A stretch of 18,080 nucleotides of DNA from Chloroflexi bacterium RBG_19FT_COMBO_55_16 (GTDB lineage: Bacteria; Chloroflexota; Anaerolineae; Anaerolineales; UBA4823), in assembly GCA_001795335.1 (NCBI GenBank), contig MGOK01000117.1, forward strand, positions 53,538 to 71,617, in the 5' to 3' direction. The notes under the pieces are model-generated. The model was not told the DNA's origin and did not search any database. It worked only from the letters and a program-made list of their open reading frames with translations. This document shows, in pieces, positions 3,435-16,463 of this stretch (positions within the stretch are counted from its first letter, which is position 1; each line of letters opens with the position of its first letter). The translations under genes were made by a program, and so were the position numbers.

Positions 3435-4325
3435 ATGCATGCCCGCCGCGCCCTGCTCTACATGCCCGGTGATGATTTCCGCAAAATCCGTAAGGCGACT
3501 ACTTTAGGAGTAGACTGCATCTGTATGGATATGGAAGATGGTGTTGCAGTTAATCGTAAAGCCGTGGCGCGCGAGACGATTGTCTCCGCTCTACATACGC
3601 TCGATTTCGGCCAGTCGGAGCGCTTAGCCCGCATCAACGCTATCGGGTCAGGGCTGGAAAGCGACGATCTCCACAGTGTGTTGCCGCACCGACCGGATGG
3701 CATCGTCATTCCTAAAGTGGACACAGCTAATCAAATCTTGTGGGTTAACGAACAGATCGCTTCCACTGAGACTGAATATGGTTGGCCTGAAGGATCGATT
3801 ATCCTGATCGCCATCATCGAGACTGCGCGCGGCATTATCAACCTGCCAACGATTGCTCAGGCTACCCCCCGGCTAAAGGCGTTGATTTTCGGGGCTGAAG
3901 ATCTGGCAGGTGATATTGGCGCGCTGCGGACTGGCGAGGGTTGGGAGGTATTTTATGCTCGCAGCGCGGTCGTGACCCACGCTGCGGCCTTCGAACTGCA
4001 AGCCATAGACATGGTTTTTATCGATTTCCATGACATCGAAGGGCTGCGCCGAGAGGCACAACAAGGAGCTCAGATGGGCTTTGCCGGCAAGCAGATCATC
4101 CACCCAAACCAGGTAGAATCAGTCCAACAGGCGTTTACCCCCGATGACGAATCCATCGCCAGGGCGTTGTACATTTTGGAAGCTTTCGCCAGTCATCAAG
4201 AGGCCGGACTGGGTGCCTTTGCCCTGGATGGAAAGATGATCGACGCTCCGAGCGTCAAAGCCGCCGAACACGTCCTCGCCCGCGCCCGGGCAGCTGGTAA
4301 GATCAAAGGCAATGGTCATCCGTAA
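3435..4325 (+). CDS. HpcH/HpaI-type CoA-ester lyase (CitE/malyl-CoA lyase-like)
   Basis: The 296-residue protein belongs to the CitE-like branch of the HpcH/HpaI aldolase family, Mg-dependent TIM barrels that cleave or form C-C bonds in 3-hydroxyacyl-CoA esters such as malyl-CoA or citramalyl-CoA. Family motifs are visible: a start RRALLYMPGDD, MDMEDGV (31-37), an Arg in ARINA (R66), the metal-binding IIETARG glutamate (E129), FGAEDLAGDIG (152-162), GKQIIHP (218-224), and a late ALDGKMIDAPSVKAAE segment. The substrate cannot be read from sequence; citramalyl-CoA, malyl-CoA and methylmalyl-CoA are all possible. It is only 6 nt from tatC, so it probably shares that transcript. It also lies just upstream of the thiolase-fold/DUF35 genes, which likewise point to acyl-CoA chemistry. 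Confidence 0.88.
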   Translation: MHARRALLYMPGDDFRKIRKATTLGVDCICMDMEDGVAVNRKAVARETIVSALHTLDFGQSERLARINAIGSGLESDDLHSVLPHRPDGIVIPKVDTANQILWVNEQIASTETEYGWPEGSIILIAIIETARGIINLPTIAQATPRLKALIFGAEDLAGDIGALRTGEGWEVFYARSAVVTHAAAFELQAIDMVFIDFHDIEGLRREAQQGAQMGFAGKQIIHPNQVESVQQAFTPDDESIARALYILEAFASHQEAGLGAFALDGKMIDAPSVKAAEHVLARARAAGKIKGNGHP

Positions 4326-4441: not shown

Positions 4442-5593
4442 ATGAATGAACGCGTCGCGATCGTCGGAATAGGATGGGCCGGGTTCCGGCCTGTCACCCC
4501 AGAGGTTTCTTACAAAGAACTCATGTATGCCGCAGCTGTGCGGGCTTACGCCGATGCAGGCGTTGATCCACTCCGTGACATTGACAGCTTTATAACTGTC
4601 GCAGAAGATTTCCATGAAGGCACCAGCATCTTTGACGAATACACGCCCGATCAGCTCGGCGCGGTACTGAAACCGATGCACACCATCGCTGGTGACGGTC
4701 TACACGGCCTGGCAGCCGCGTACATGTTGGTTCGTACTGGACAATTCTCGATAGTCGCCGTGGAAGGGCATAGCAAAGCCTCGAACATCTTGACTTTACC
4801 TGAAATTACTGCCTATGCGCAAGACCCGGTGCTCAACCGCCCGCTCCGCCTTAACACCCATTTCGTCGCCGGGCTGGAAATGAACCGTTTCCTTTACGAT
4901 ACAGGCACATCCCTAGAACAATGCGCCGCGGTCACAGCGAAAAACCGACGCAACGCCCTGGATAACCCCTCGGCTGCCTATGGCGCTGACCTGACCCTCG
5001 CAGAGGTCATGGATAGCCAGTTTCTTGCCTGGCCGTTAAGCCGCCACCAGGTTGCTGAACACGCTGACGGAGCTATCGTCATGGTGTTAGCAGCGGAGGA
5101 GACCGCCCGCCGGTTGACTGACTATCCAGTCTGGATCCTTGGTGCCGGGTGGTGCAGTGACTCGCCCTCCCTGGAAAATAGAGACTGGGGGCAGGCAGTG
5201 TACGCCCACCAGGCAGCTGGCATGGCATATCGTCAGGCTGGCATTCGCAGCCCGCAAGCTGCAATAGACTTCGCTGAAGTAGATGATACCTACGCTTATA
5301 AAGAGCTGCAATCCCTGGAAGCCTTGGGGCTAGTTCCTGCTGGCTCGGCTGGTCTGCTTACCGAAGAGGGCGCCACGCAGCCAGATGGTGAACTACCTGT
5401 GAACGTCTCCGGTGGCAGCCAGGGTATGGGGAACTTGTTGGATGCTACCGGTCTGGCGCGTGCTTTGGAAGTGGTAGTGCAATTGCGGGGAGAAGCCGGA
5501 CCTCGCCAATTGAAAGACATCCAAATCGGATTAGCTCAGTCCTGGCGCGGCGTACCGACCGCTAGTGGAGCGGTTGTCATTTTGAGCAACTGA
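4442..5593 (+). CDS. Thiolase-fold protein A, lacking thiolase catalytic residues
   Basis: The 383-residue product has the overall pattern of SCP2-type thiolases: a VAIVGIGWAGF start, an EMNR/NRRNALDNP segment (146-176), ADGAIVMVLAAEE (208-220), a VSGGSQGMG turn (322-330) and QLRGEAGPRQ (347-356). The residues that make a thiolase work are missing in my motif alignment. The nucleophile Cys position reads Gly (G86, context GDGLHG), the HDCF motif reads DDTY (281-284), and the GHP histidine is Asn (N331). It is therefore unlikely to be a conventional thiolase. It is followed 16 nt later by a paralogue and then two DUF35 genes, so the four products probably form a complex. A good AGAGGAG ribosome site precedes the ATG. 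The reaction is unknown. Confidence 0.85.
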   Translation: MNERVAIVGIGWAGFRPVTPEVSYKELMYAAAVRAYADAGVDPLRDIDSFITVAEDFHEGTSIFDEYTPDQLGAVLKPMHTIAGDGLHGLAAAYMLVRTGQFSIVAVEGHSKASNILTLPEITAYAQDPVLNRPLRLNTHFVAGLEMNRFLYDTGTSLEQCAAVTAKNRRNALDNPSAAYGADLTLAEVMDSQFLAWPLSRHQVAEHADGAIVMVLAAEETARRLTDYPVWILGAGWCSDSPSLENRDWGQAVYAHQAAGMAYRQAGIRSPQAAIDFAEVDDTYAYKELQSLEALGLVPAGSAGLLTEEGATQPDGELPVNVSGGSQGMGNLLDATGLARALEVVVQLRGEAGPRQLKDIQIGLAQSWRGVPTASGAVVILSN

Positions 5594-5595
5594 AT

Positions 5596-5600
5596 AGGAG
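5596..5600 (+). promoter_or_regulatory. Ribosome binding site deciding the start of thiolase-fold protein B
   Basis: AGGAG lies 9 nt before the ATG at 5610 but only 3 nt before the alternative GTG at 5604. The spacing favours the ATG start. Confidence 0.75.
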
Positions 5601-5609
5601 AGCGTGATT

Positions 5610-6776
5610 ATGTCAAAGCGAAAAGTCGCTGTTGTCGGGGCCGGGATGACAAGGTTTGTCCGCCGTGCCCAGGAAACCGGAAAGGAACTCTCCTGGCAGG
5701 CAGTTCGTATGGCGCTTGAATCCTGCGAAATGACGATGGACGATATCGAAGCGGTTTGCCTAGGAACCGCTCCAGACGCTTTCGATGGCGTACATATGAA
5801 AGGAGAATACCTGAGTGATGGCGCTGGCGCCTGGCGTAAACCTTACATGCGCTCGTATGTTGGCGGTGGTACCGGCGTCTTTGTTCCCATCCAAGCCTGG
5901 TATCATATCGCCTCTGGGCTTTTCGATGTCTGCCTGGTGGTCGCCGAAGAGAAAATGTCGAGTTTTTATCCCCATGCTCAGGCTGCTTTCCTGACCATCT
6001 TCGACCATACCACCGAACGACCGCTTAAGCCCAATCTGTTGTGGATCTTCGCTCTGGAAATGAACCGTTATATGCATACCTACGGCATTTCTAAGGCCGA
6101 CATCGCCCAAGTAGCTGTAAAAAATAAACGCAATGCCGCTGACCATCCATGTGCTCTCCTCGGTGATAAAAACATCACTGTAGAAGACGTGCTTAATTCC
6201 GAACTGCTTGCCTGGCCGGTCAACCGGCTGGATGTCAGCCCAGTCTCTGATGGAGCCGTCGCCCTGGTCCTGGCTGCGGAACACGTCGCCAAGCGCATCA
6301 CCGATAAACCGGTCTGGATCGAGGGCGTCGGCTGGAGTCTTGATACAGCCCACTGGACCAACCGCGACCTGGCTTATCCACGCTACGTCGAATACGCCGC
6401 TCGCATGGCCTACGAGATGGCCGGTATCAAAGAACCCCGCAAAGAGATTCACATCGTCGAACCATACGATCCCTTCGACTACAAAGAGCTCCACCACCTG
6501 GAAGGATTGCTGCTGGCTGACCGCGGCCAGGCTCCTCAGCTGGTCGCCGATGGGGTCACATTACGGGATGGGGATATGCCGGTGTGCCCCTCGGGTGGCC
6601 TGTTGGGAGTCGGCAACCCAATCGCTGCCGCTGGTTTAATGAAAATCGCAGAGCTTTTCTGGCAATTGCGTGGCGAAGCCGGTGCCCGTCAGGTCCCAGG
6701 CCAACCCAAGCGCGGTCTGGCCCAGGCCTGGGGTGATTTGATGCAGGTTGGTACTGTAGTGATCATGGGTCGCTGA
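5610..6776 (+). CDS. Thiolase-fold protein B, lacking thiolase catalytic residues
   Basis: The 388-residue protein is a paralogue of the preceding one; shared blocks include ALEMNR, KNKRNAADHP, ELLAWP and QLRGEAGARQ. It has the thiolase pattern (VAVVGAGMTRF start, VVAEEKMS, PSGGLLGVGNP) but not the catalytic set. The nucleophile position reads Gly (G86, context GGGTG), HDCF reads YDPF (286-289), and the GHP histidine is Asn (N336). The Tyr in the HDCF position resembles what I recall of Ltp-type steroid side-chain aldolases, which reuse this fold for retro-aldol cleavage. The ATG at 5610 is preferred over GTG at 5604 because of ribosome-site spacing. A DUF35 gene starts 9 nt after the stop. 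Other possibilities are an acyl-CoA-binding or structural partner of protein A. Confidence 0.85.
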   Translation: MSKRKVAVVGAGMTRFVRRAQETGKELSWQAVRMALESCEMTMDDIEAVCLGTAPDAFDGVHMKGEYLSDGAGAWRKPYMRSYVGGGTGVFVPIQAWYHIASGLFDVCLVVAEEKMSSFYPHAQAAFLTIFDHTTERPLKPNLLWIFALEMNRYMHTYGISKADIAQVAVKNKRNAADHPCALLGDKNITVEDVLNSELLAWPVNRLDVSPVSDGAVALVLAAEHVAKRITDKPVWIEGVGWSLDTAHWTNRDLAYPRYVEYAARMAYEMAGIKEPRKEIHIVEPYDPFDYKELHHLEGLLLADRGQAPQLVADGVTLRDGDMPVCPSGGLLGVGNPIAAAGLMKIAELFWQLRGEAGARQVPGQPKRGLAQAWGDLMQVGTVVIMGR

Positions 6777-6785
6777 GGAGGTTAA

Positions 6786-7307
6786 ATGACATCAAATATC
6801 AAGAACTTTCCGGGAACATCCTTGAGTGAACAGGATATTGTCGATGGGAAAATTTTTTCCCTGCATGACAGTATGCGTGCTGACTTCGGCTGGGATACTG
6901 GCGTCGCAGTCGGCAGCTATCTAGCCGCCCTCAAAGAGGGCGTGATCCTCGGAGCACGCTGCCGTCACTGTCGAAAAACAGTGGTCCCACCTCGCCAAGT
7001 CTGCGAATGGTGCTATCGCCCAATGAGCGATTACGTTCCTCTGCAAGATACAGGCATAGTGAATACCTTCTCTTTATGCTACGTGACCTGGGATGTGCAA
7101 CGAATCAAGGAACCCGAAATCCCAGCCGTCATCGAAATCGATGGCGCCTCTCCCTTGCACGGTATCCTCCATAAGTTGGGTGAAATTAACCCCCAAGAAG
7201 TGCGAATTGGGATGCGCGTTAAAGCTGTCTGGAAACCCACCGCAGAACGCATCGGAGCTATCACCGATATCCTGTATTTCAGGCCTAACCTGGAGAAACA
7301 GCCATGA
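6786..7307 (+). CDS. DUF35 (zinc ribbon/OB-fold acyl-CoA-binding) protein A
   Basis: The 173-residue protein has the DUF35 layout. A leading helical region is followed by a rubredoxin-like zinc ribbon with CxxC pairs at C59/C62 and C73/C76, then an OB-fold that ends with the typical AVWKPTAER...DILYFRP pattern. DUF35 proteins bind acyl-CoA and assemble with thiolase-fold partners; known cases include archaeal acetoacetyl-CoA thiolase/HMG-CoA synthase complexes and ChsH2 with Ltp2. The N-terminal 45 residues are longer than in minimal members and might contact the thiolase-fold partner. A strong GAGGAGG ribosome site overlaps the end of the upstream gene. The stop overlaps the next gene's ATG (ATGA), which suggests coupled, balanced production of the two DUF35 subunits. 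Confidence 0.88.
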   Translation: MTSNIKNFPGTSLSEQDIVDGKIFSLHDSMRADFGWDTGVAVGSYLAALKEGVILGARCRHCRKTVVPPRQVCEWCYRPMSDYVPLQDTGIVNTFSLCYVTWDVQRIKEPEIPAVIEIDGASPLHGILHKLGEINPQEVRIGMRVKAVWKPTAERIGAITDILYFRPNLEKQP

Positions 7308-7768
7308 CTCTTCTTGAACGAGATCCGCATGCACCGCCCATCTGGCAAGGTTCGGTCCCAATCACCAACCGTTACACATTTGGTCTTGCCGGGGAACGCT
7401 TCTTCCAGGCGATCAAGGAGCAGGGGCGTATCTTGGGCACCCATTGCACCAATTGCATGCATACTTATGTGCCAGCGGCAACCTTTTGTGAACGCTGCCT
7501 TAACCAGCTAGACGATTGGATCGATGTTGGCACAGTAGGTGAGATCGTCACCTATACGCTTTTATCCGTGAACTTTGACGGTTCTCCCAAGACATCGCCC
7601 GAGTTGGTGGCTTTCATCCGGCTTGGCGATGGTGGGTTAATTCATCGGATCGCAGAGGTCAATTCGGAGCCAGTCTTCATTGGGATGCAGGTTGAGGCTG
7701 TATTCAGGCCACCTGCCGAGCGCCAGGGCTCTATTCTGGATATTGCTTATTTCAAACCATACCCATAG
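7304..7768 (+). CDS. DUF35 (zinc ribbon/OB-fold acyl-CoA-binding) protein B
   Basis: The 154-residue second DUF35 protein shows zinc-ribbon CxxC pairs at C48/C51 and C62/C65, then an OB-fold region (VTYTLL through VFRPPAERQGSILDIAYF). It shares the architecture of the preceding protein but differs clearly in sequence, so the two are paralogues and not a recent duplication. With two thiolase-fold proteins and two DUF35 proteins in one operon, each DUF35 may pair with one thiolase-fold protein. The pairing cannot be read from sequence. It is the last gene of the unit; a 53-nt gap without a recognisable terminator follows before the lipoprotein gene. Confidence 0.88.
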   Translation: MTLLERDPHAPPIWQGSVPITNRYTFGLAGERFFQAIKEQGRILGTHCTNCMHTYVPAATFCERCLNQLDDWIDVGTVGEIVTYTLLSVNFDGSPKTSPELVAFIRLGDGGLIHRIAEVNSEPVFIGMQVEAVFRPPAERQGSILDIAYFKPYP

Positions 7769-7821: not shown

Positions 7822-10224
7822 ATGTCTTTTCGCCGCCACTTTATATCCGTTCTGATACTAATCGGGGTTCTGGCTGGAACCATTCTGGGCTGTAATTTCA
7901 CTGGCTTGTTATCGACTCAACCCACTCCGCCTGCATCACAGGCAAGTCCTACACCAACCACACCACTCCTGGAGGCTATGGTAACCTTCCGGATTCAGCT
8001 TCCCCCCAACACCCCACCACAGCAACCTGTTACCCTGGATGTACTCGATGAAGTCACTGGTCTGGCGCTTAACATCGAGCAGTACGAAATGCAGAAGGTC
8101 GATAGCCTGGTTTATGAAATAAGCCTACCTTTACCAGTTGGTGCGACGATCAAATATCGTTATTCCCGCCAGGGGAGTTACCAGGCCGGTGAACACACGT
8201 CTAATGGCTATCCAGTGCGTTACCGCATGGTGAACGTTGATGGACCCGGCATTGTCCAGGATTTGGTCAGCGCCTGGAGCGACACGCCCTTTCAAGGGCT
8301 TAGCGGGCGCATCATCGGGCAGGTAACCGATGCGCAGAATGGTTCTCCACTCGCGAACCTGCTGGTTACCGCCGGGGGCTACCAAACCCTGACTGCCTCC
8401 AACGGCTCGTTTTTATTAGAGGGGCTGCCTCCTGGAACACATAACCTGGTCGTTTATGCTTTGGATGGCTCCTACCAGACTTTCCAGCAGGGCGCACGCG
8501 TGGCTCCCAATTCCGGTACCCCCGCCATCATTCAAATGACCGCCGCCCCTCTGGTTAATGTTATCTTCACTGTCAGCGTTCCCCCAGATACCTTGTCTGC
8601 CGTTCCGATTCGACTGGCTGGAAACCTCTACCAGCTTGGTAATACTTTTGCCGATCTGTCCGGTGGCATCAATACATTGGCTTCCCGAATGCCAGTATTA
8701 ACCCCATTGCCTGACGGACGCTACAGCCTGGCCCTGAATCTACCTGCTGGCGCGGATATTCAGTATAAATACACCCTTGGGGATGGGTTCTGGAACGCGG
8801 AACATACATTCAGTGGTGATTTTCGCCTGCGCCGTTTGATAGTCTCTGAGTCGACCACTATCATTCAGGACATCATTGACACCTGGAAGACAGAACCAGG
8901 CGGAGGATCAGTTTTTTTTGATCTCACCGCACCAGCCAATACCCCAGACATCGATTTCGTCTCGATTCAGTTTAATCCATACGGCTGGACCGAACCAATC
9001 CCTATGTGGCACCTGGGCCAGGACCATTGGGCTTACGTGCTTTACAGCCCGCTCGACATGCTGGAGACGCTTGGCTATCGTTACTGCCGTAACGACCAAT
9101 GCTCTTACGCAGACGACAAAACCACAGCTGGGAAAGACAGTATCGGGCGTACGCTTAAGGTTAAAGGGGGCAACCAGGCGGTTAATGACACAGTTGATTC
9201 CTGGATCTGGTGGGGAGCAGAGAGTCTCCTTACGTCAATGGATACGCCGGAGGTCATCTCACACGGGCAAGATTTCATCGCTGGCGTAGAATTTCAACCC
9301 GGCTACCACCCTTCCTGGACCCCCCGCCTGCCAGTCTCCCTCAAGGAGCTGCAATGGTTAGGCGCAAATTGGGTAGTGTTCTCCCCAACCTGGACTTATT
9401 CTCGCCAGGCGCCCCCAGTCCTCGAACCGGTCACCGGCCGCGACCCGCTTTGGCCAGATTCCGCTACTGAGTTGGATCAGGCACACGCTTTCGGCTTGAA
9501 TGTAGCCTTAAATCCAGCACCGAATTTTTCCCCCCCTGCGGAAGAATGGTGGAGCAGCGCGCCCCGTGACTTCGCTTGGTGGATTGCCTGGTTTAGCAGT
9601 TATCGTTCTTTCGTCATACACCACGCTGACCTGGCAAGTCGAAATGGAGCTCAAGCGCTCGTCCTGGGGGGTGACTGGGTTACACCTGCATTGCCAAATG
9701 GAGTCTTGTTCGATGGTTCCCCATCGGGTGTACCCCTTGACGCCGAGACTCGTTGGCGAGAATTAATTGCCGAAGTCAAGGGACGCTACGCTGGCACGCT
9801 GGTTTGGGCTTTGCCCGCTTCACCGGAAGGAATAAAAGCGCCATCCTTCCTGGATGCAGTTGACCAATTCTACTTGCTCTGGTCTTTACCCATGGGGGAG
9901 ACAGCCGATGGCTCCCAGGAGGGTATGCAAGCCGCTGCAACCCGGCTGCTTGACAATGTGGTTAAACCTCTCAAACAACAATTCAACAAGCCGATTGTCA
10001 TCGGTGTGGCTTATCCTTCAGCCAGCAACCTTCAAGAACAAGCTCTAGCGTATCAATCTATCCTGCTCGCCCTAAACGGGAGTGAGTGGATCGCTGGCTT
10101 CATCTCACGCGGTTACTTTCCGCCTGCGGCGCTCCAGGATGAGTCAACCTCTGTGCACGGTAAACCAGCAAGCGATGTGCTAAAATACTGGTTTCCACGC
10201 TTATTAGGTATCTCCCCTCCATAG
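7822..10224 (+). CDS. Multi-module surface lipoprotein with GH113-like C-terminal barrel
   Basis: The 800-residue protein starts with a lipoprotein signal peptide: basic MSFRRH, a hydrophobic stretch, and the lipobox ILGC with C24. A Pro/Thr/Ser linker follows. Next come three related beta-rich modules, roughly 52-155, 244-358 and 362-464. Each opens with a PP/PAN-type strand and closes near a conserved (D)xxxxW tail (VQDLVSAW, IQDIIDTW, NDTVDSW); they resemble starch-binding-like folds. A carboxypeptidase-regulatory-like module (about 162-240, GQVTD...GSFLLEGLPPG) sits between the first two. The C-terminus (about 483-800) resembles GH113 mannanase-like TIM barrels (LGANWVVFSPTW, WF-SY). The position I expect for the acid Glu reads GGD (D617), so activity is doubtful. 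Probably an extracytoplasmic carbohydrate-binding protein. Confidence 0.75.
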   Translation: MSFRRHFISVLILIGVLAGTILGCNFTGLLSTQPTPPASQASPTPTTPLLEAMVTFRIQLPPNTPPQQPVTLDVLDEVTGLALNIEQYEMQKVDSLVYEISLPLPVGATIKYRYSRQGSYQAGEHTSNGYPVRYRMVNVDGPGIVQDLVSAWSDTPFQGLSGRIIGQVTDAQNGSPLANLLVTAGGYQTLTASNGSFLLEGLPPGTHNLVVYALDGSYQTFQQGARVAPNSGTPAIIQMTAAPLVNVIFTVSVPPDTLSAVPIRLAGNLYQLGNTFADLSGGINTLASRMPVLTPLPDGRYSLALNLPAGADIQYKYTLGDGFWNAEHTFSGDFRLRRLIVSESTTIIQDIIDTWKTEPGGGSVFFDLTAPANTPDIDFVSIQFNPYGWTEPIPMWHLGQDHWAYVLYSPLDMLETLGYRYCRNDQCSYADDKTTAGKDSIGRTLKVKGGNQAVNDTVDSWIWWGAESLLTSMDTPEVISHGQDFIAGVEFQPGYHPSWTPRLPVSLKELQWLGANWVVFSPTWTYSRQAPPVLEPVTGRDPLWPDSATELDQAHAFGLNVALNPAPNFSPPAEEWWSSAPRDFAWWIAWFSSYRSFVIHHADLASRNGAQALVLGGDWVTPALPNGVLFDGSPSGVPLDAETRWRELIAEVKGRYAGTLVWALPASPEGIKAPSFLDAVDQFYLLWSLPMGETADGSQEGMQAAATRLLDNVVKPLKQQFNKPIVIGVAYPSASNLQEQALAYQSILLALNGSEWIAGFISRGYFPPAALQDESTSVHGKPASDVLKYWFPRLLGISPP

Positions 10225-10241: not shown

Positions 10242-11144
10242 ATGAAACCTTTTGCCCTCCCCCCTTATACACATATCGCCAACATACATTTACAGGTATC
10301 GAATCTTGAACGCTCCTTGACCTTCTACGCCGGGATGATGGGGTTCAAGGAAATTCACCGAGGTAAAGCTCTAGCCGACCTTTCCGCCAGTGGGACCGAC
10401 CCCTTTCTGATCCGCTTAAGCGAAAAGCCTGGCGCCCGCCCAAAACCACCTCGCACCACCGGCCTTTACCATATTGCCATTCGTCTGCCTGACCGCTCAT
10501 CACTGGCGCGCCTCTTTCAGCGTCTGATCGATTCTCAAGTCCCCTTTCAGGGTTTTTCAGACCATAAGGTCAGTGAGGCGCTTTATCTGGCAGATCCAGA
10601 TGGCAACGGCGTGGAACTTTATGTCGATCGACCGCGCAGCCAATGGCCTCGTTTGGACGATATGATCGCCATGACCACAGACCCTCTGGATGTGGAAGAC
10701 CTACTTCACCAGGCAGAAGGCAATACCTCCCCCTGGCGTGGCATCCACCCGGAAACTGATATTGGCCATATCCACCTGCAGGTATCTGACCTGGCGCAAA
10801 CTGAAGATTTTTATCATGGCCTGCTGGGCTTTGATGTCACCCAAAGGTTTTACCCGGGAGCGTTATTCCTTTCAGCCGGTGGATATCACCACCATTTAGG
10901 CACAAATATCTGGGACAGTCGCGCCGCTCCCCCGCCACCGGCGGATGCTGTCGGGCTTTTGTCTTTCGCGATCAGGATTCCGGATTGGACAACCTGGAAG
11001 GCACTGAATGTCCGCCTTCAGGAATCGAATATACCAATTGAACTTCAGGAAACTGATAGTACGGCCAGCCTATTAATACACGATCCAGCTCAGAATAGGG
11101 TTGAACTCATCGTAGACCGATCCACACACGCTGCGATTTCCTGA
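10242..11144 (+). CDS. Two-domain VOC protein, extradiol dioxygenase/glyoxalase-like
   Basis: The 300-residue protein consists of two vicinal-oxygen-chelate domains (about 10-130 and 172-293). Each has the IHLQVS(N/D)L opening and a xVEL(Y/I)VDR closing strand. Candidate metal ligands are H16, H77 and E125 in the first domain, and H178, one of H216-H218 and E288 in the second. The length and the GGYHHHLGTNIW segment are closest to the CatE-type catechol 2,3-dioxygenase group of Bacillus. In an organism that looks anaerobic, an oxygen-dependent ring-cleaving role would be surprising, so a lyase, isomerase or resistance role within the superfamily is equally possible. The gene starts 17 nt after the lipoprotein gene and may be co-transcribed with it. 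Confidence 0.82.
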   Translation: MKPFALPPYTHIANIHLQVSNLERSLTFYAGMMGFKEIHRGKALADLSASGTDPFLIRLSEKPGARPKPPRTTGLYHIAIRLPDRSSLARLFQRLIDSQVPFQGFSDHKVSEALYLADPDGNGVELYVDRPRSQWPRLDDMIAMTTDPLDVEDLLHQAEGNTSPWRGIHPETDIGHIHLQVSDLAQTEDFYHGLLGFDVTQRFYPGALFLSAGGYHHHLGTNIWDSRAAPPPPADAVGLLSFAIRIPDWTTWKALNVRLQESNIPIELQETDSTASLLIHDPAQNRVELIVDRSTHAAIS

Positions 11145-12146: not shown

Positions 12147-13787
12147 TCATCCACCGGCCTCCATCCTCCCCATAACTCCCACCACCGCCTCTAAGACATC
12201 TCCTGCCAATACCGCCGCGGTTGAGCCCAAAGTTTGGGCAGCGCGCAGTCCGCTCTCAGCGTGTATCCAGCTTCCACTCACTGCAGCTTCGAAAGCTTCA
12301 AATCCCTGTGCCCGGAAGCCGACGATCAATCCCGCAAGCACGTCGCCTGTCCCGGCGCGCGCCAGGGCTGCGCTCGCCACAGGGATCAAAACCGTCCTCC
12401 CATCTGGGGCAGATACCACGCTGTTAGCGCCTTTGAGCACAACCACGTGCCCCCATTCTTGAGCGTAACGTTCAGCTATCTCTATCCGGTTTGCTTGAAT
12501 ATCGCCTACTTGCAGGCCGGTCAAAATCGCCATTTCCCCAGGATGGGGTGTCAATACTGCTGGCGCAGGCAGGGATTTGGCCCACTCTGGGAGGCGAGCC
12601 AACAACTTCAAACCGTCTGCGTCTACTACCAATGGCGGCAATTTTTCCCGAATTGCGCTCCCACCTTTGCTCGATGCAGGCGCGAAACCAATACCAATCC
12701 GCCGGCCTTGGGGAACCGACCCAAGCAGCCGTACTAGGAAGTCCCGAGTTTCTTCCTCCAGGCCAAGGCCAGGTCCGATTAACATAGCCGTCGCCCGATC
12801 CAGGTTTTCCCTGATTACCTCGGTTGCTTCGGCAGCGATCACTCCCATCTCATGCGGCAAGAGTAACCAGGTCGCTTCTGGAAATTGACCTGCTAAGACG
12901 GCATGCAACGGAGCTGGGACCGCCAGAGTTACCAGACCTGCGCCGCACCGGTAGGCTGCTTTTCCGGCCAGGAGCGCTGCGCCGGTGTAATTCACCGAGC
13001 CAGCCACTACCAACGCGGTGCCGAAGGTACCCTTATGAGCGTCGCGTGGTCGGTCGGGTAACAATCGCCGGACCATATCCTCATCAGCCACATGGCGCTT
13101 AATCGCTTGCCAGACTTCCAGGTTTAGGCCTTCCTGCTCCAAACCGATCCCCACCACGCGCAGCTTACCGATCAGGTTATTTGCTGGGAAGCGTAACAGG
13201 CCAGTTTTTACCGCCGCCATGGTTACAGTCAGATCCGCCGGAATACACTCAGCAGCTGCCTCTCCACTATCGCAGTCTACCCCAGATGGGCAATCAACTG
13301 CCACCACTAGCGGCTTTTGAGGAAGCTCATCCAACTCGCGCCGGGTCTTCTCTAAAGCCTCCGCCACCTTGCCCCGCACAGGCAATTGGATGCCTGTCCC
13401 GAGCACACCATCCAACAGAATAGCACTTTTGCTTAATTCTTCTGTCAATTTCCTAAAATCAACATCGTCTTCGATAGTTAAGATTTTCCCACCTGCCGCC
13501 CTTAAGCGCTCCACCAATGGGTCATCCGATGGGCGCTTCCGCACCAGATACGCGCTCGTAATCCACCCTTGATTAGCTAAATGCGTCAGGGCAACCAGCG
13601 TATCTCCACCATTGTTCCCAGAGCCGATCAAACCACATACCCCCCTTGTAACAAGGTGCCCATAGACTTCACTCACCACCTGTGCCAGTCCTAGCCCTGC
13701 GTTCTCCATCATCATCGCATAACTCAATCCACTGGCATCTGCCTGGCGTTCGATGGCCTGCATCTCAGCTACCGTCACTAATCTCAC
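12147..13787 (-). CDS. nnr: Bifunctional NAD(P)HX epimerase/ADP-dependent NAD(P)HX dehydratase
   Basis: This enzyme repairs hydrated NAD(P)H: the N-terminal domain interconverts the R and S epimers and the C-terminal domain dehydrates the S form using ADP. In the 546-residue product the epimerase domain (about 1-225) shows GNNGGD (57-62), LDGVLGTG (125-132) and the catalytic-region DCPSG (165-169). The dehydratase domain (about 240-540) shows HKGTFG (251-256), GPGLG (338-342), TPHPGEM (413-419), VLKGANSVV (450-458) and GTGDVLAG (479-486). This is the usual fused bacterial form. Its ATG overlaps the AOR stop by 4 nt, so the two are co-transcribed and translationally coupled. That pairing may reflect demand for cofactor repair beside a redox enzyme, but the link is inferred. 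Confidence 0.95.
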   Translation of the reverse strand: MRLVTVAEMQAIERQADASGLSYAMMMENAGLGLAQVVSEVYGHLVTRGVCGLIGSGNNGGDTLVALTHLANQGWITSAYLVRKRPSDDPLVERLRAAGGKILTIEDDVDFRKLTEELSKSAILLDGVLGTGIQLPVRGKVAEALEKTRRELDELPQKPLVVAVDCPSGVDCDSGEAAAECIPADLTVTMAAVKTGLLRFPANNLIGKLRVVGIGLEQEGLNLEVWQAIKRHVADEDMVRRLLPDRPRDAHKGTFGTALVVAGSVNYTGAALLAGKAAYRCGAGLVTLAVPAPLHAVLAGQFPEATWLLLPHEMGVIAAEATEVIRENLDRATAMLIGPGLGLEEETRDFLVRLLGSVPQGRRIGIGFAPASSKGGSAIREKLPPLVVDADGLKLLARLPEWAKSLPAPAVLTPHPGEMAILTGLQVGDIQANRIEIAERYAQEWGHVVVLKGANSVVSAPDGRTVLIPVASAALARAGTGDVLAGLIVGFRAQGFEAFEAAVSGSWIHAESGLRAAQTLGSTAAVLAGDVLEAVVGVMGRMEAGG

Positions 13788-15607
13788 GATTCCTTCTCCT
13801 CAAGCACCCAACTTAACCCTAATCGACCCAAGGTTTCCCGGGTTGGAAATCCAGTCGCCGGCTCCCAACCACGCGTTTCATAGTATGCTTCCAGCATGGC
13901 ATTAAAATCCGGTGCATAGCCGGACTCGCCGTTCGGATCATCCAAATATGGGACCAGCAACCCTTTGGGGAGCTTATCGCTTGAAGGTTCCAACCCCAGG
14001 CGCTTATTGATGACGCGTTTCAGGTTCCAACCTCGTTCGCCAGATCGTATCACTTCATTAATATCCCAATCAAGACCACAAGCGGCGTTGATCAACTCCA
14101 CAACCGTCTCTGGCGCGACGTTGGCAAAAAAGCACATGACGAGAGAATTAAACACGGTTCGCCAGTTCTGGTGGATGGCGACGTTTGCTGCTTTCTCCGC
14201 CCCACCCTTCGAGGGATGCCATTCACATCCCAGGCTTGTTTCCACCTGCCCCAAATCAACCAGGAAATAATCTGACTGGTTGTGGCAGGCGCCGCGCGGT
14301 GAGGTGGCGTAGACCAATGCCATTCCTGAAGCCCCCCGCGGATCGTGATAAGCCACCTCAAGACCATTGACCTGCACCGCATCTTCCTCCACACCGAACC
14401 TCCTACCCAGGTTACGCGCCCCCTCAGCCAGGGATGCCCCAAAACCAGTGCGTTGGGCAGTCATGTTCACCAACTGTTCAACTAACAAGGCCTTTCCCCA
14501 ATCCAATGCCAACCCGCCAGTATCTTCTCTCGTTATTATCCCTTTATCGTATAAGCTGAACGCCAATCCGATTGTGTTACTCAGGCTAATGATATCCATC
14601 CCGTATCGATCGCACAGCTCTCCCAACCGAGTCGCCGCCTTTGGGTCATTCAAGCACAGATTCGGACCAAACCCCACCAATGTTTCGTATTCCGGTCCTT
14701 TGCGCTTGACGCCATCCTCGAGACGTACCACCCTCCCGCAGGCGATCACACAGGCGTGGCAAGTGCTAAAACCGGCCAGGATCGTCTCTGTAACGCTGGA
14801 TCCGGTGATCTGGAGCTCCTCGTCAAATTCTCCTCTCTGGAAATATTTTTTTGGCATCTCCCCGATGTAATCGAAGTAGTCAGCTGCGCTCGCTGAGCCC
14901 AACTCGTGGACCACCTGGCTAATGTTGTCCTCCCGCAGCACGCGGTTTGCCTCGGACCGCAGCGGGTTGTACTTGGCTGGATCGCTAACCGCCACTTTAC
15001 CACTTCCTCTGACCGCCACAGCCTTAAGGTTTTTTGACCCCATCACAGCTCCCAGGCCTGTCCGTCCTGCGACGCGGCCGTGATCACACAGGATCAGCGC
15101 AAACGGGATCAACGCTTCCCCGGCTGGGCCGATGCAAGCAACCCTTATTGCTTGTTGCGCAAGTTCATTTTTGATTGCCATCTGGGTCTGGTAGGTATCC
15201 ATCCCCCACAATTGGTCCGCCGCTCGGATTTCCAACTGGTCATCCTCGACCCACACATAGACTGGACGCAACGCACGTCCGCTGATCAGTATGCCGTCGA
15301 AGCCAGCTTTGCGCAGCTCGGGTCCCCAGAAACCTCCACAGTTAGATTCAGCCCATAAGCCGGTAGCTGGTGAACGCCCACAGACTACAAAACGTCCCAC
15401 TGCCGGTCCAGATGTCCCTGTGAGCGGTCCGTTCATGAACAGCAGCGGCGCTTCAGGTGATAACGGATCCAAATCTGGCACCAAAACGGCATATAATATG
15501 CGCGCCGCTAATGAAGCCCCACCCAGGTAATCACGCTCCCATGCCTCCGGTATCGATATTTTCCCGAATTCACTGGTGGTTAAATCCACGGATAAGATTG
15601 GCCGCAT
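13784..15607 (-). CDS. Aldehyde ferredoxin oxidoreductase family protein (tungsten-type)
   Basis: AOR-family enzymes oxidise aldehydes to acids with ferredoxin, using a tungsten bis-pyranopterin and one [4Fe-4S] cluster; they are oxygen-sensitive. The 607-residue protein has the family length. The cluster ligands are visible as C283-x2-C286-x3-C290 plus a distant C492. Other landmarks are the RTGLGAVMGSKNLKAV cofactor-binding segment (182-197), the GPEYET segment (304-309), and H442 in ACHNQSDY, near the place of the active-site His in Pyrococcus AOR. The aldehyde substrate cannot be told from sequence; some relatives act on other compounds. A GAGGAG ribosome site precedes the ATG. The stop overlaps the nnr start, and the gene diverges from the ubiquitin-like/Mut7-C gene. 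Confidence 0.92.
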   Translation of the reverse strand: MRPILSVDLTTSEFGKISIPEAWERDYLGGASLAARILYAVLVPDLDPLSPEAPLLFMNGPLTGTSGPAVGRFVVCGRSPATGLWAESNCGGFWGPELRKAGFDGILISGRALRPVYVWVEDDQLEIRAADQLWGMDTYQTQMAIKNELAQQAIRVACIGPAGEALIPFALILCDHGRVAGRTGLGAVMGSKNLKAVAVRGSGKVAVSDPAKYNPLRSEANRVLREDNISQVVHELGSASAADYFDYIGEMPKKYFQRGEFDEELQITGSSVTETILAGFSTCHACVIACGRVVRLEDGVKRKGPEYETLVGFGPNLCLNDPKAATRLGELCDRYGMDIISLSNTIGLAFSLYDKGIITREDTGGLALDWGKALLVEQLVNMTAQRTGFGASLAEGARNLGRRFGVEEDAVQVNGLEVAYHDPRGASGMALVYATSPRGACHNQSDYFLVDLGQVETSLGCEWHPSKGGAEKAANVAIHQNWRTVFNSLVMCFFANVAPETVVELINAACGLDWDINEVIRSGERGWNLKRVINKRLGLEPSSDKLPKGLLVPYLDDPNGESGYAPDFNAMLEAYYETRGWEPATGFPTRETLGRLGLSWVLEEKES

Positions 15608-15676: not shown

Positions 15677-15703
15677 AATTCAACTCAACAATGAGATCGA
15701 TTT

Positions 15704-15707
15704 GGAG
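15704..15707 (+). promoter_or_regulatory. Ribosome binding site deciding the start of the Mut7-C gene
   Basis: GGAG lies 9 nt before the ATG at 15717. A TTG five codons further upstream overlaps this site, so it would leave the gene without a ribosome site. The ATG is preferred. Confidence 0.65.
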
Positions 15708-15716
15708 CTATTTTTG

Positions 15717-16463
15717 ATGCCCACGACCAATATTCGTTTTTTCGCCGAGCTGAACGACTTTCTCCCAGCAGATCGGAAAGAAAAACTATTTCGCTTTCCT
15801 TTCAAAGGCAATCCATCTGTTAAACACTTGATCGAATCCTTGGGTGTCCCTCATACCGAAGTCGGTCTGATTGAAGCCAACGATCAACCTGTGGATTTCA
15901 CATACCTTCTTCAACCTGGCGATCGGATCGCTGTTTACCCGGCATTCCAGGAGCACGAAAACAATCCTGGGACAACTAGATCTGACCTCAGTCAAACTGG
16001 CCCGCGTTTTCTGCTTGATAATCATCTGGGCAAATTGGCGACTTACCTGCGTATGTTGGGTTTCGACGTCCTTTATCGCACCGACTACCAGGATGATGAT
16101 CTCGTCGCTGTCCTGAACCAGGAAAAGCGCATCCTTTTGACTCGCGATCGCCGCCTTTTGATGCGTAAGTCTGTCGTCGACGGTTATTGTGTACGCAGCC
16201 TGGATCCCGAATCTCAATTGCTCGAAGTATCACGACGCTATGATTTACCTGACAAGATCACCCCCTTCAGGCGTTGCCTGCGCTGCAATAGCTCTCTGCA
16301 ACCCATCGAAAAAGAGGCCATATTGCACCGTCTGCAACCCCTGACAATCCGCTACTACGATGAATTCCACATTTGCCCATCCTGCAACCAGGTGTATTGG
16401 AAAGGCTCCCATTACGAGCGGATGCAAAAGTTCGTCATCCAGGTAGCTCCAACACGGGGATGA
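15717..16463 (+). CDS. Ubiquitin-like (MoaD-type) domain fused to Mut7-C RNase domain
   Basis: The 248-residue protein has two parts. Residues 1-78 form a MoaD/ThiS-like beta-grasp domain (RFFAELNDFLP, VKHLIESLGVP, LQPGDRIAVYPAF), matching the Ub-Mut7C type. Residues 97-240 form a Mut7-C domain, a PIN-like putative nuclease, with FLLDNHLGKLATYLRMLGFDV, acidic D101 and D143 in LLTRDRRLL, and a zinc ribbon with C187/C190 and C220/C223 near the YWKGSHYERM end. This fusion is a known but poorly characterised architecture. The MoaD-like part lacks the exposed C-terminal Gly-Gly of sulfur carriers, so it probably does not form a thiocarboxylate. It is divergent from AOR. Its stop lies only 14 nt from that of the converging zinc-ribbon gene. 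Confidence 0.88.
   Translation: MPTTNIRFFAELNDFLPADRKEKLFRFPFKGNPSVKHLIESLGVPHTEVGLIEANDQPVDFTYLLQPGDRIAVYPAFQEHENNPGTTRSDLSQTGPRFLLDNHLGKLATYLRMLGFDVLYRTDYQDDDLVAVLNQEKRILLTRDRRLLMRKSVVDGYCVRSLDPESQLLEVSRRYDLPDKITPFRRCLRCNSSLQPIEKEAILHRLQPLTIRYYDEFHICPSCNQVYWKGSHYERMQKFVIQVAPTRG

Follow-up and report, generated by a model that had tools for sequence, protein, structure and literature searches.

Sal and Ltp2 are aldolases built on the thiolase fold and bound to proteins of the DUF35 family, in which the Tyr of a YDxF motif acts as the base; Sal carries Gly at the position of the thiolase Cys, and in the Sal-Shy complex two DUF35 proteins flank a central thiolase dimer, according to the available text of PMC12329534. 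Both Ltp2-ChsH2 (PDB 6ok1) and Sal-Shy (PDB 9myr) are steroid side-chain aldolases, and each contains one kind of thiolase-fold protein and one kind of DUF35 protein. The four-gene cassette described here, A-B-C-D, lies in an 18,080-nucleotide stretch of the genome of Chloroflexi bacterium RBG_19FT_COMBO_55_16 (contig MGOK01000117.1), which as a whole is referred to below as the window. Like these enzymes it combines the thiolase fold with a putative DUF35 partner, but it encodes two kinds of each. The module is real, widespread and conserved, and a search of the open-access literature found no published assignment of function for it. The four genes are:

4442..5593, + strand: A, thiolase-fold protein with an apparently degenerate active site (383 amino acids; Pfam Thiolase_C_1)
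5604..6776, + strand: B, thiolase-fold protein with a fixed, Cys-free site and invariant motifs (Pfam Thiolase_N and Thiolase_C_1)
6786..7307, + strand: C, DUF35 protein, zinc ribbon and OB fold (173 amino acids; Pfam zf-ChsH2 and OB_ChsH2_C)
7304..7768, + strand: D, DUF35 protein, zinc ribbon and OB fold (154 amino acids; Pfam zf-ChsH2 and OB_ChsH2_C)

In the map of open reading frames (ORFs) the four genes are co-directional across 4442-7768, with spacers of 10 bp between A and B and 9 bp between B and C, and a 4-bp overlap of C and D; these features and the Pfam domains bear out the original prediction of two thiolase-fold and two DUF35 genes in one tight operon. B comprises 390 amino acids from a GTG start, or 388 from the ATG at 5610. 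A and B are paralogues sharing 38% identity, and the closest relatives of A, one of them labelled Anaerolineales, are 95-99% identical to it. Against NCBIfam, B scores 653 bits for PRK06065, above the curated cut-off of 455, and A scores 481 bits for PRK06066, below its cut-off of 516, which was passed in one of eight searched genomes of relatives. The thiolase fold is assigned to A from its sequence, and to B from its sequence and a predicted structure (predicted local distance difference test score, pLDDT, 93.5) whose best structural matches are thiolases; an earlier model of B, built from close homologues alone, had a mean pLDDT of 34.2 and was discarded. All four zinc-ribbon Cys residues are invariant in the ten aligned C proteins, and two of the four are lost in one of ten aligned D proteins (locus L146). 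A scan for regulatory signals gave nothing useful, with one promoter-like site against 3.1 expected and six terminator-like sites against 3.9.

The active-site positions were mapped by alignment with solved thiolases, and with Cys-bearing thiolases from some of the same archaeal loci. Residues were counted in the window and 80 relatives (the best 80 of 134 A relatives from a genome scan), giving 81 rows for A and 80 for B, 78 of the latter with letters at YDPF and Asn338. In the window the positions are:

4697..4699, + strand: A Gly86 codon, nucleophile-Cys position
5282..5293, + strand: A DDTY (residues 281-284), HDCF position
5432..5434, + strand: A Asn331 codon, GHP-His position
5865..5867, + strand: B Gly88 codon (Gly86 from the ATG start), nucleophile-Cys position, within the GGG loop
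6465..6476, + strand: B YDPF (residues 288-291), HDCF position, with Tyr288 as the proposed base (78/78 rows; aligns with YDHF of an Ltp2 relative)
6615..6617, + strand: B Asn338 codon, GHP-His position, 50 residues past Tyr288

A and B had both been predicted to lack the nucleophile Cys, the HDCF motif and the GHP His, which is confirmed for the window proteins (Gly86 and Gly88, DDTY and YDPF, Asn331 and Asn338). That the two losses are alike holds only in part, as the altered site of B is invariant over its relatives and that of A is not. In B, YDPF and Asn338 are found in 78/78 rows, Gly88 in 80/80 and Gly89 in 78/80, and the combination of GGG, YDPF and GNP is near-invariant over 14 named phyla. 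Among the 81 A proteins, position 86 holds Gly in 54, Phe in 21 and another residue in six; position 281 holds Asp in 57, Asn in 15 and Ser in nine; position 283 is unconstrained; and at position 331 there are 32 with His, 27 with Asn and 13 with Tyr, the remainder having others. The GHP His is therefore kept in 32 A proteins, and HDCF is absent from A. The prediction had been made to depend on there being no aligned Cys and His in the active site: Cys is absent from the nucleophile position in all 81 A and 80 B rows, and the GHP His is present in some A proteins (position 331). Fourteen further archaeal pairs follow the same trend, with B retaining GG[GA], YDPF and GNP, and A diverging more.

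B is also the slower of the two, being nearer than A to its window counterpart in 80/80 loci (median identity 75 versus 60%), and in 40/40 archaeal loci B is 61-70% identical to the window B and A 38-60% identical to the window A. As the site of B is fixed and B changes more slowly, and the positions of A drift, B is probably the catalytic subunit and A probably its degenerate, non-catalytic partner. Since position 331 is mixed in A and fixed as Asn in B, the replacement of the GHP His by Asn characterises the B family alone. The proposal that the enzyme is repurposed and not decayed is thus well supported for B, with its fixed altered site, and for the assembly, whose genes are kept together, but A is better regarded as a degenerate partner.

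At the level of residues, B shares with Ltp2 and Sal a Gly at the nucleophile-Cys position, a Tyr-Asp-x-aromatic motif where thiolases have HDCF, and a changed residue 50 positions past the Tyr (288/338 in B, 294/344 in Ltp2, 302/352 in Sal); its GGG loop resembles that of an Ltp2 relative. It differs in having YDPF where these have YDHF or YDCY, and Asn where they have Tyr or Gln. In the tree, A and B form two sister clades, and the grouping of Ltp2, Sal and 4u4e (100/99) excludes both; the model of B, moreover, has a fold more like that of DUF35-linked thiolases than that of either aldolase. The suggested analogy with Ltp2-ChsH2 therefore amounts to a likeness and not to membership, against which stand the tree and the differing second catalytic residue. 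The same tree places PDB 4u4e, a Sphaerobacter thermophilus 'thiolase' in which YDSF replaces HDCF, with Sal (98/82) and Ltp2; its name notwithstanding, it is probably of the aldolase type.

A second comparison is offered by Ltp3-Ltp4 of actinobacteria (PRK08313 and PRK07937 types), which, like A and B, pairs two unlike thiolase-fold proteins, one of them degenerate, with DUF35, and is termed a heteromeric aldol-lyase in the accessible part of a review (PMC6678751). Plasmid genes were assigned to Ltp3 and Ltp4 here by NCBIfam match and gene order; Y-x-P-F and N-P, as in B, are present in 3/3 rows of Ltp3-type plasmid proteins, and in an Ltp3-Ltp4-type cluster of Streptomyces clavuligerus (L092) one protein matches C twice, equivalent to two DUF35 units. 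The cassette is nevertheless distinct, as B reaches only 271 bits for PRK08313 (cut-off 514) and A 100 bits for PRK07937 (cut-off 419), and A and B form a clade pair of their own in the tree, where the position of Ltp4 is unsure because of long branches. On the Rhodococcus qingshengii plasmid pLP1 (L091), a 'hypothetical protein' at 8081-8995 is a very degenerate thiolase-fold partner, adjoining genes for an Ltp3-type protein, a DUF35 protein, two MaoC proteins and two acyl-CoA dehydrogenases. The PhlACB acyltransferase (5m3k) differs from the cassette in its single kind of DUF35 and in PhlC, which is described in the text available as an active thiolase-type subunit; an acyltransferase of this type was rejected, there being no Cys at the nucleophile position of A or B.

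By the labels of their metagenome-assembled genomes (MAGs), which are unverified, the 80 relatives comprise Chloroflexota (38), Actinomycetota (7), Thermodesulfobacteriota (5), Bacillota (5), Myxococcota (4), Caldifarciminota (4), Bathyarchaeota (3), Pseudomonadota (3), Planctomycetota (3), Baldrarchaeota (2), four more phyla with one each, and two with no phylum. B lies downstream of A on the same strand in 80/80 fetched relatives, which exceeds what chance would produce, with a median gap of 23 bp and a maximum of 996 bp. A survey of archaea covered 300 genomes from the phylum, presumably Thermoproteota in GTDB, of a Bathyarchaeota MAG that carries the cassette (L034). With the A profile at E<=1e-90, 58 of the 300 genomes match, seven of these through B alone. 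B is present in 59 and C in 61, the two occurring together in 58, B alone in one, C alone in three and neither in 238 (Fisher p 4e-57, kinship uncorrected). In nine of the ten archaeal genomes that seemed to lack A, the cause was the threshold, as a divergent A (234-286 bits) precedes B; the remaining one (L183) gave no A call. The three genomes with C only have an A-B pair of lower score and one DUF35. L187, L188 and L189 (genomes G117, G166 and G261) show a related form of the cassette, in A-B-C triplets whose B scores lower (271-368 bits) and which have just one DUF35.

The window, the 80 relatives and 40 archaeal loci fetched from the 58 genomes make up a set of 121 loci, in which the gene order is ABCD in 99, AB in 15, ABC in six and rearranged in one; the genome-context survey proposed at the outset thus yields conserved four-gene sets in both bacteria and archaea. 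Eleven genomes lacking C and D beside A-B were searched further: in eight, C and a second DUF35 match sit elsewhere, in two, C begins at the very start of another contig, and in G304 the contig stops 0.7 kb past B. That the gene pairs persist even when split argues for A-B-C-D forming one complex. The identity of 61-70% between B of a Chloroflexota bacterium and B of the archaeal loci, with the same partners, implies that its role must be a basic one.

The window D matches PDB 3irb (SSO2064) in a search of the PDB, and D of another A-B-C-D locus (L160) gives a full-length match of 274 bits with 116/144 residues identical, so close as to identify SSO2064, the first DUF35 structure, as a D subunit by sequence; from the same identity the host of L160 would be a relative of Sulfolobus. 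The genome-context section of the SSO2064 paper deals with thiolases generally and with phlABC, and not with this four-gene set (PMC2954200, available text).

The genes that surround the cassette point to its pathway, their numbers being raw counts with no random-locus baseline. In the 121 loci, matches to acyl-CoA dehydrogenase number 33, 11, 8, 6, 3 and 1 in successive 1.5-kb bins, short contigs thinning the far bins; 28 of the nearest 33 are co-directional with the cassette, and such a gene adjoins it in 10/10 divergent loci. The large subunit of a B12-dependent mutase is found in eight loci and the small subunit in ten, accompanied elsewhere in the set by crotonase (7), adenosyltransferase (5), acetyl-CoA acetyltransferase (5), MeaB (4), a CoA-transferase pair (4) and electron-transfer flavoprotein (4). 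With 13 further loci added (134 in total), acyl-CoA dehydrogenase is found anywhere on 57, AMP-forming acyl-CoA synthetase on 30, 2-oxoacid dehydrogenase E1-alpha on six and E1-beta on three, with an indolepyruvate-oxidoreductase-type pair in L139; no dehydrogenase was seen in at least 64 of the 134 loci searched for markers.

The mutase of L034 has 2-hydroxyisobutyryl-CoA mutase (HCM) as its best match (625 bits) but lacks the HCM Asp, and also the Tyr and Arg of methylmalonyl-CoA mutase (MCM), the residues that we take to decide the mutase type. Both identities are thus ruled out by residues in L034, the other five mutases having been compared by motif, and this leaves the isobutyryl-CoA type. 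Beyond the pair beside A, L042 has extra matches to the large and small subunits (58-70%), which suggests a second mutase set. A cluster of mutase, adenosyltransferase and MeaB is described as acting in syntrophic isobutyrate breakdown (PMC5017805, in the part available), and this, together with the dehydrogenase, mutase, synthetase and E1 neighbours, suggests that the cassette acts on short, branched acyl-CoAs. A link to acetone formylation was dropped, as that route uses a thiamine diphosphate enzyme, and the available text of the paper mentions neither thiolase nor DUF35 (PMC7888143).

From the sequences, their conservation, the gene linkage and the predicted fold of B, we tentatively infer an all-hetero DUF35-thiolase-thiolase-DUF35 complex that carries out (retro-)aldol chemistry with a short 3-hydroxyacyl-CoA, probably a branched one, as its substrate; the aldol chemistry is a best guess. 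A and B would form the thiolase-fold dimer, with C and D on its flanks, in the known layout but with each copy distinct, and A would retain the fold and the dimer surface. As B has no Cys, an acyl-enzyme cannot form. Instead, Tyr288 of YDPF would accept the proton of a beta-hydroxyl group, and cleavage between the alpha and beta carbons would release an aldehyde or ketone and leave an acyl-CoA enolate, to be bound or protonated by groups close to Asn338 and the GGG loop. In the pathway, short, probably branched, acids may be activated by acyl-CoA synthetase, CoA-transferase or 2-oxoacid dehydrogenase, followed by acyl-CoA dehydrogenase, hydration and cleavage by A-D, with the B12 mutase joining where isobutyryl- or butyryl-type acyl-CoAs interconvert. 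As a guess, the substrate could be 3-hydroxy-3-methylbutyryl-CoA (3-hydroxyisovaleryl-CoA), cleaved to acetone and acetyl-CoA; oxidation to a ketone is not open to a tertiary beta-alcohol, and the choice follows from this chemical argument only. A broader proposal, that of a four-subunit CoA-thioester aldolase, widespread among Archaea and Bacteria and derived independently from the thiolase fold, serving a biotin-free isovaleryl-CoA pathway (dehydrogenation, hydration and retro-aldol cleavage to acetone and acetyl-CoA) in place of methylcrotonyl-CoA carboxylase and 3-hydroxy-3-methylglutaryl-CoA (HMG-CoA) lyase, is unlikely to be right as a whole.

Several other functions were weighed against this. 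Some databases call A and B acetyl-CoA C-acetyltransferase, and an ordinary acetyltransferase would agree with the fold, the overall alignment and the source names, but the residues of B contradict it: the nucleophile Cys, the His and Cys of HDCF and the GHP His are missing in every examined row, and Cys-bearing thiolases (ACA, HD[CA]F, GHP) adjoin some of the same cassettes. A Cys-dependent thiolase is thus rejected despite its fold, and is extremely improbable. It is very unlikely that the complex is not an enzyme, and instead binds and delivers acyl-CoA or acts as a scaffold for another protein; DUF35 proteins have been proposed as acyl-CoA carriers (PMC2954200, available text) and A has no conserved catalytic set, but fixed YDPF, GNP and GGG motifs over two domains would be unexpected in a binding protein.

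That fixation, with the same replacements as in Sal and Ltp2, counts for an aldolase. Weighing against it, the second catalytic residue of B corresponds to neither Tyr344 of Ltp2 nor Cys304 of Sal, B having Asn338 and Pro290. Other Cys-free acyl-CoA chemistry in B, whether decarboxylation, hydration/dehydration or isomerisation, is unlikely, since the nearest residue patterns that have been measured, YDHF and YDCY, belong to aldolases, and CtSal is described as lacking malonyl-CoA decarboxylation (PMC12329534, in the text available). Were the aldolase to run forwards, joining the enolate of an acyl-CoA to a ketone or aldehyde for assimilation or biosynthesis, this would fit with the reversibility of aldol reactions, with short-chain acyl-CoA synthetases near 30 of the 134 loci, and with L134, where the cassette is flanked by a gene resembling 3-ketoacyl-acyl carrier protein synthase III and HMG-CoA synthase, and by an acetoacetyl-CoA-type thiolase with DUF35. 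Cleavage to acetyl-CoA is, however, the usually favoured direction, and the acyl-CoA dehydrogenase and B12 mutase neighbours indicate breakdown, which makes the forward reaction decidedly unlikely. If retro-aldol cleavage by A-D is correct, the thiolase fold would have given rise to Cys-free chemistry on a separate occasion, the first DUF35 structure would gain its proper partners, and what becomes of short branched acids in anaerobes and archaea could be tested with a single four-gene construct.

Elsewhere in the window, the gene nearest to the cassette on its upstream side is:

3435..4325, + strand: CitE-like HpcH/HpaI lyase (Pfam PF03328), ending 116 bp upstream of A

This lyase occurs in 10 of the 121 loci, every one titled Chloroflexota or a member of it, and is a possible pathway partner in Chloroflexota only. 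Other genes ahead of A are tat, nusB and an Asp23-like gene, from reading of the ORFs, and fabG, from an NCBIfam match. Directly after D, 7822-10224 encodes a lipoprotein-like protein of 800 amino acids with carboxypeptidase-regulatory and GH113-like domains (Pfam), followed at 10242-11144 by a two-domain glyoxalase/VOC protein; its NCBIfam matches to many Fos families are weak, those listed falling far below their cut-offs, so that no resistance call is warranted. On the - strand, 12147-15607 holds an aldehyde ferredoxin oxidoreductase gene in a 4-bp overlap with a YjeF/NAD(P)H-hydrate dehydratase gene. At 15702-16463 a ubiquitin-like domain is fused to a Mut7-C RNAse domain (Pfam).

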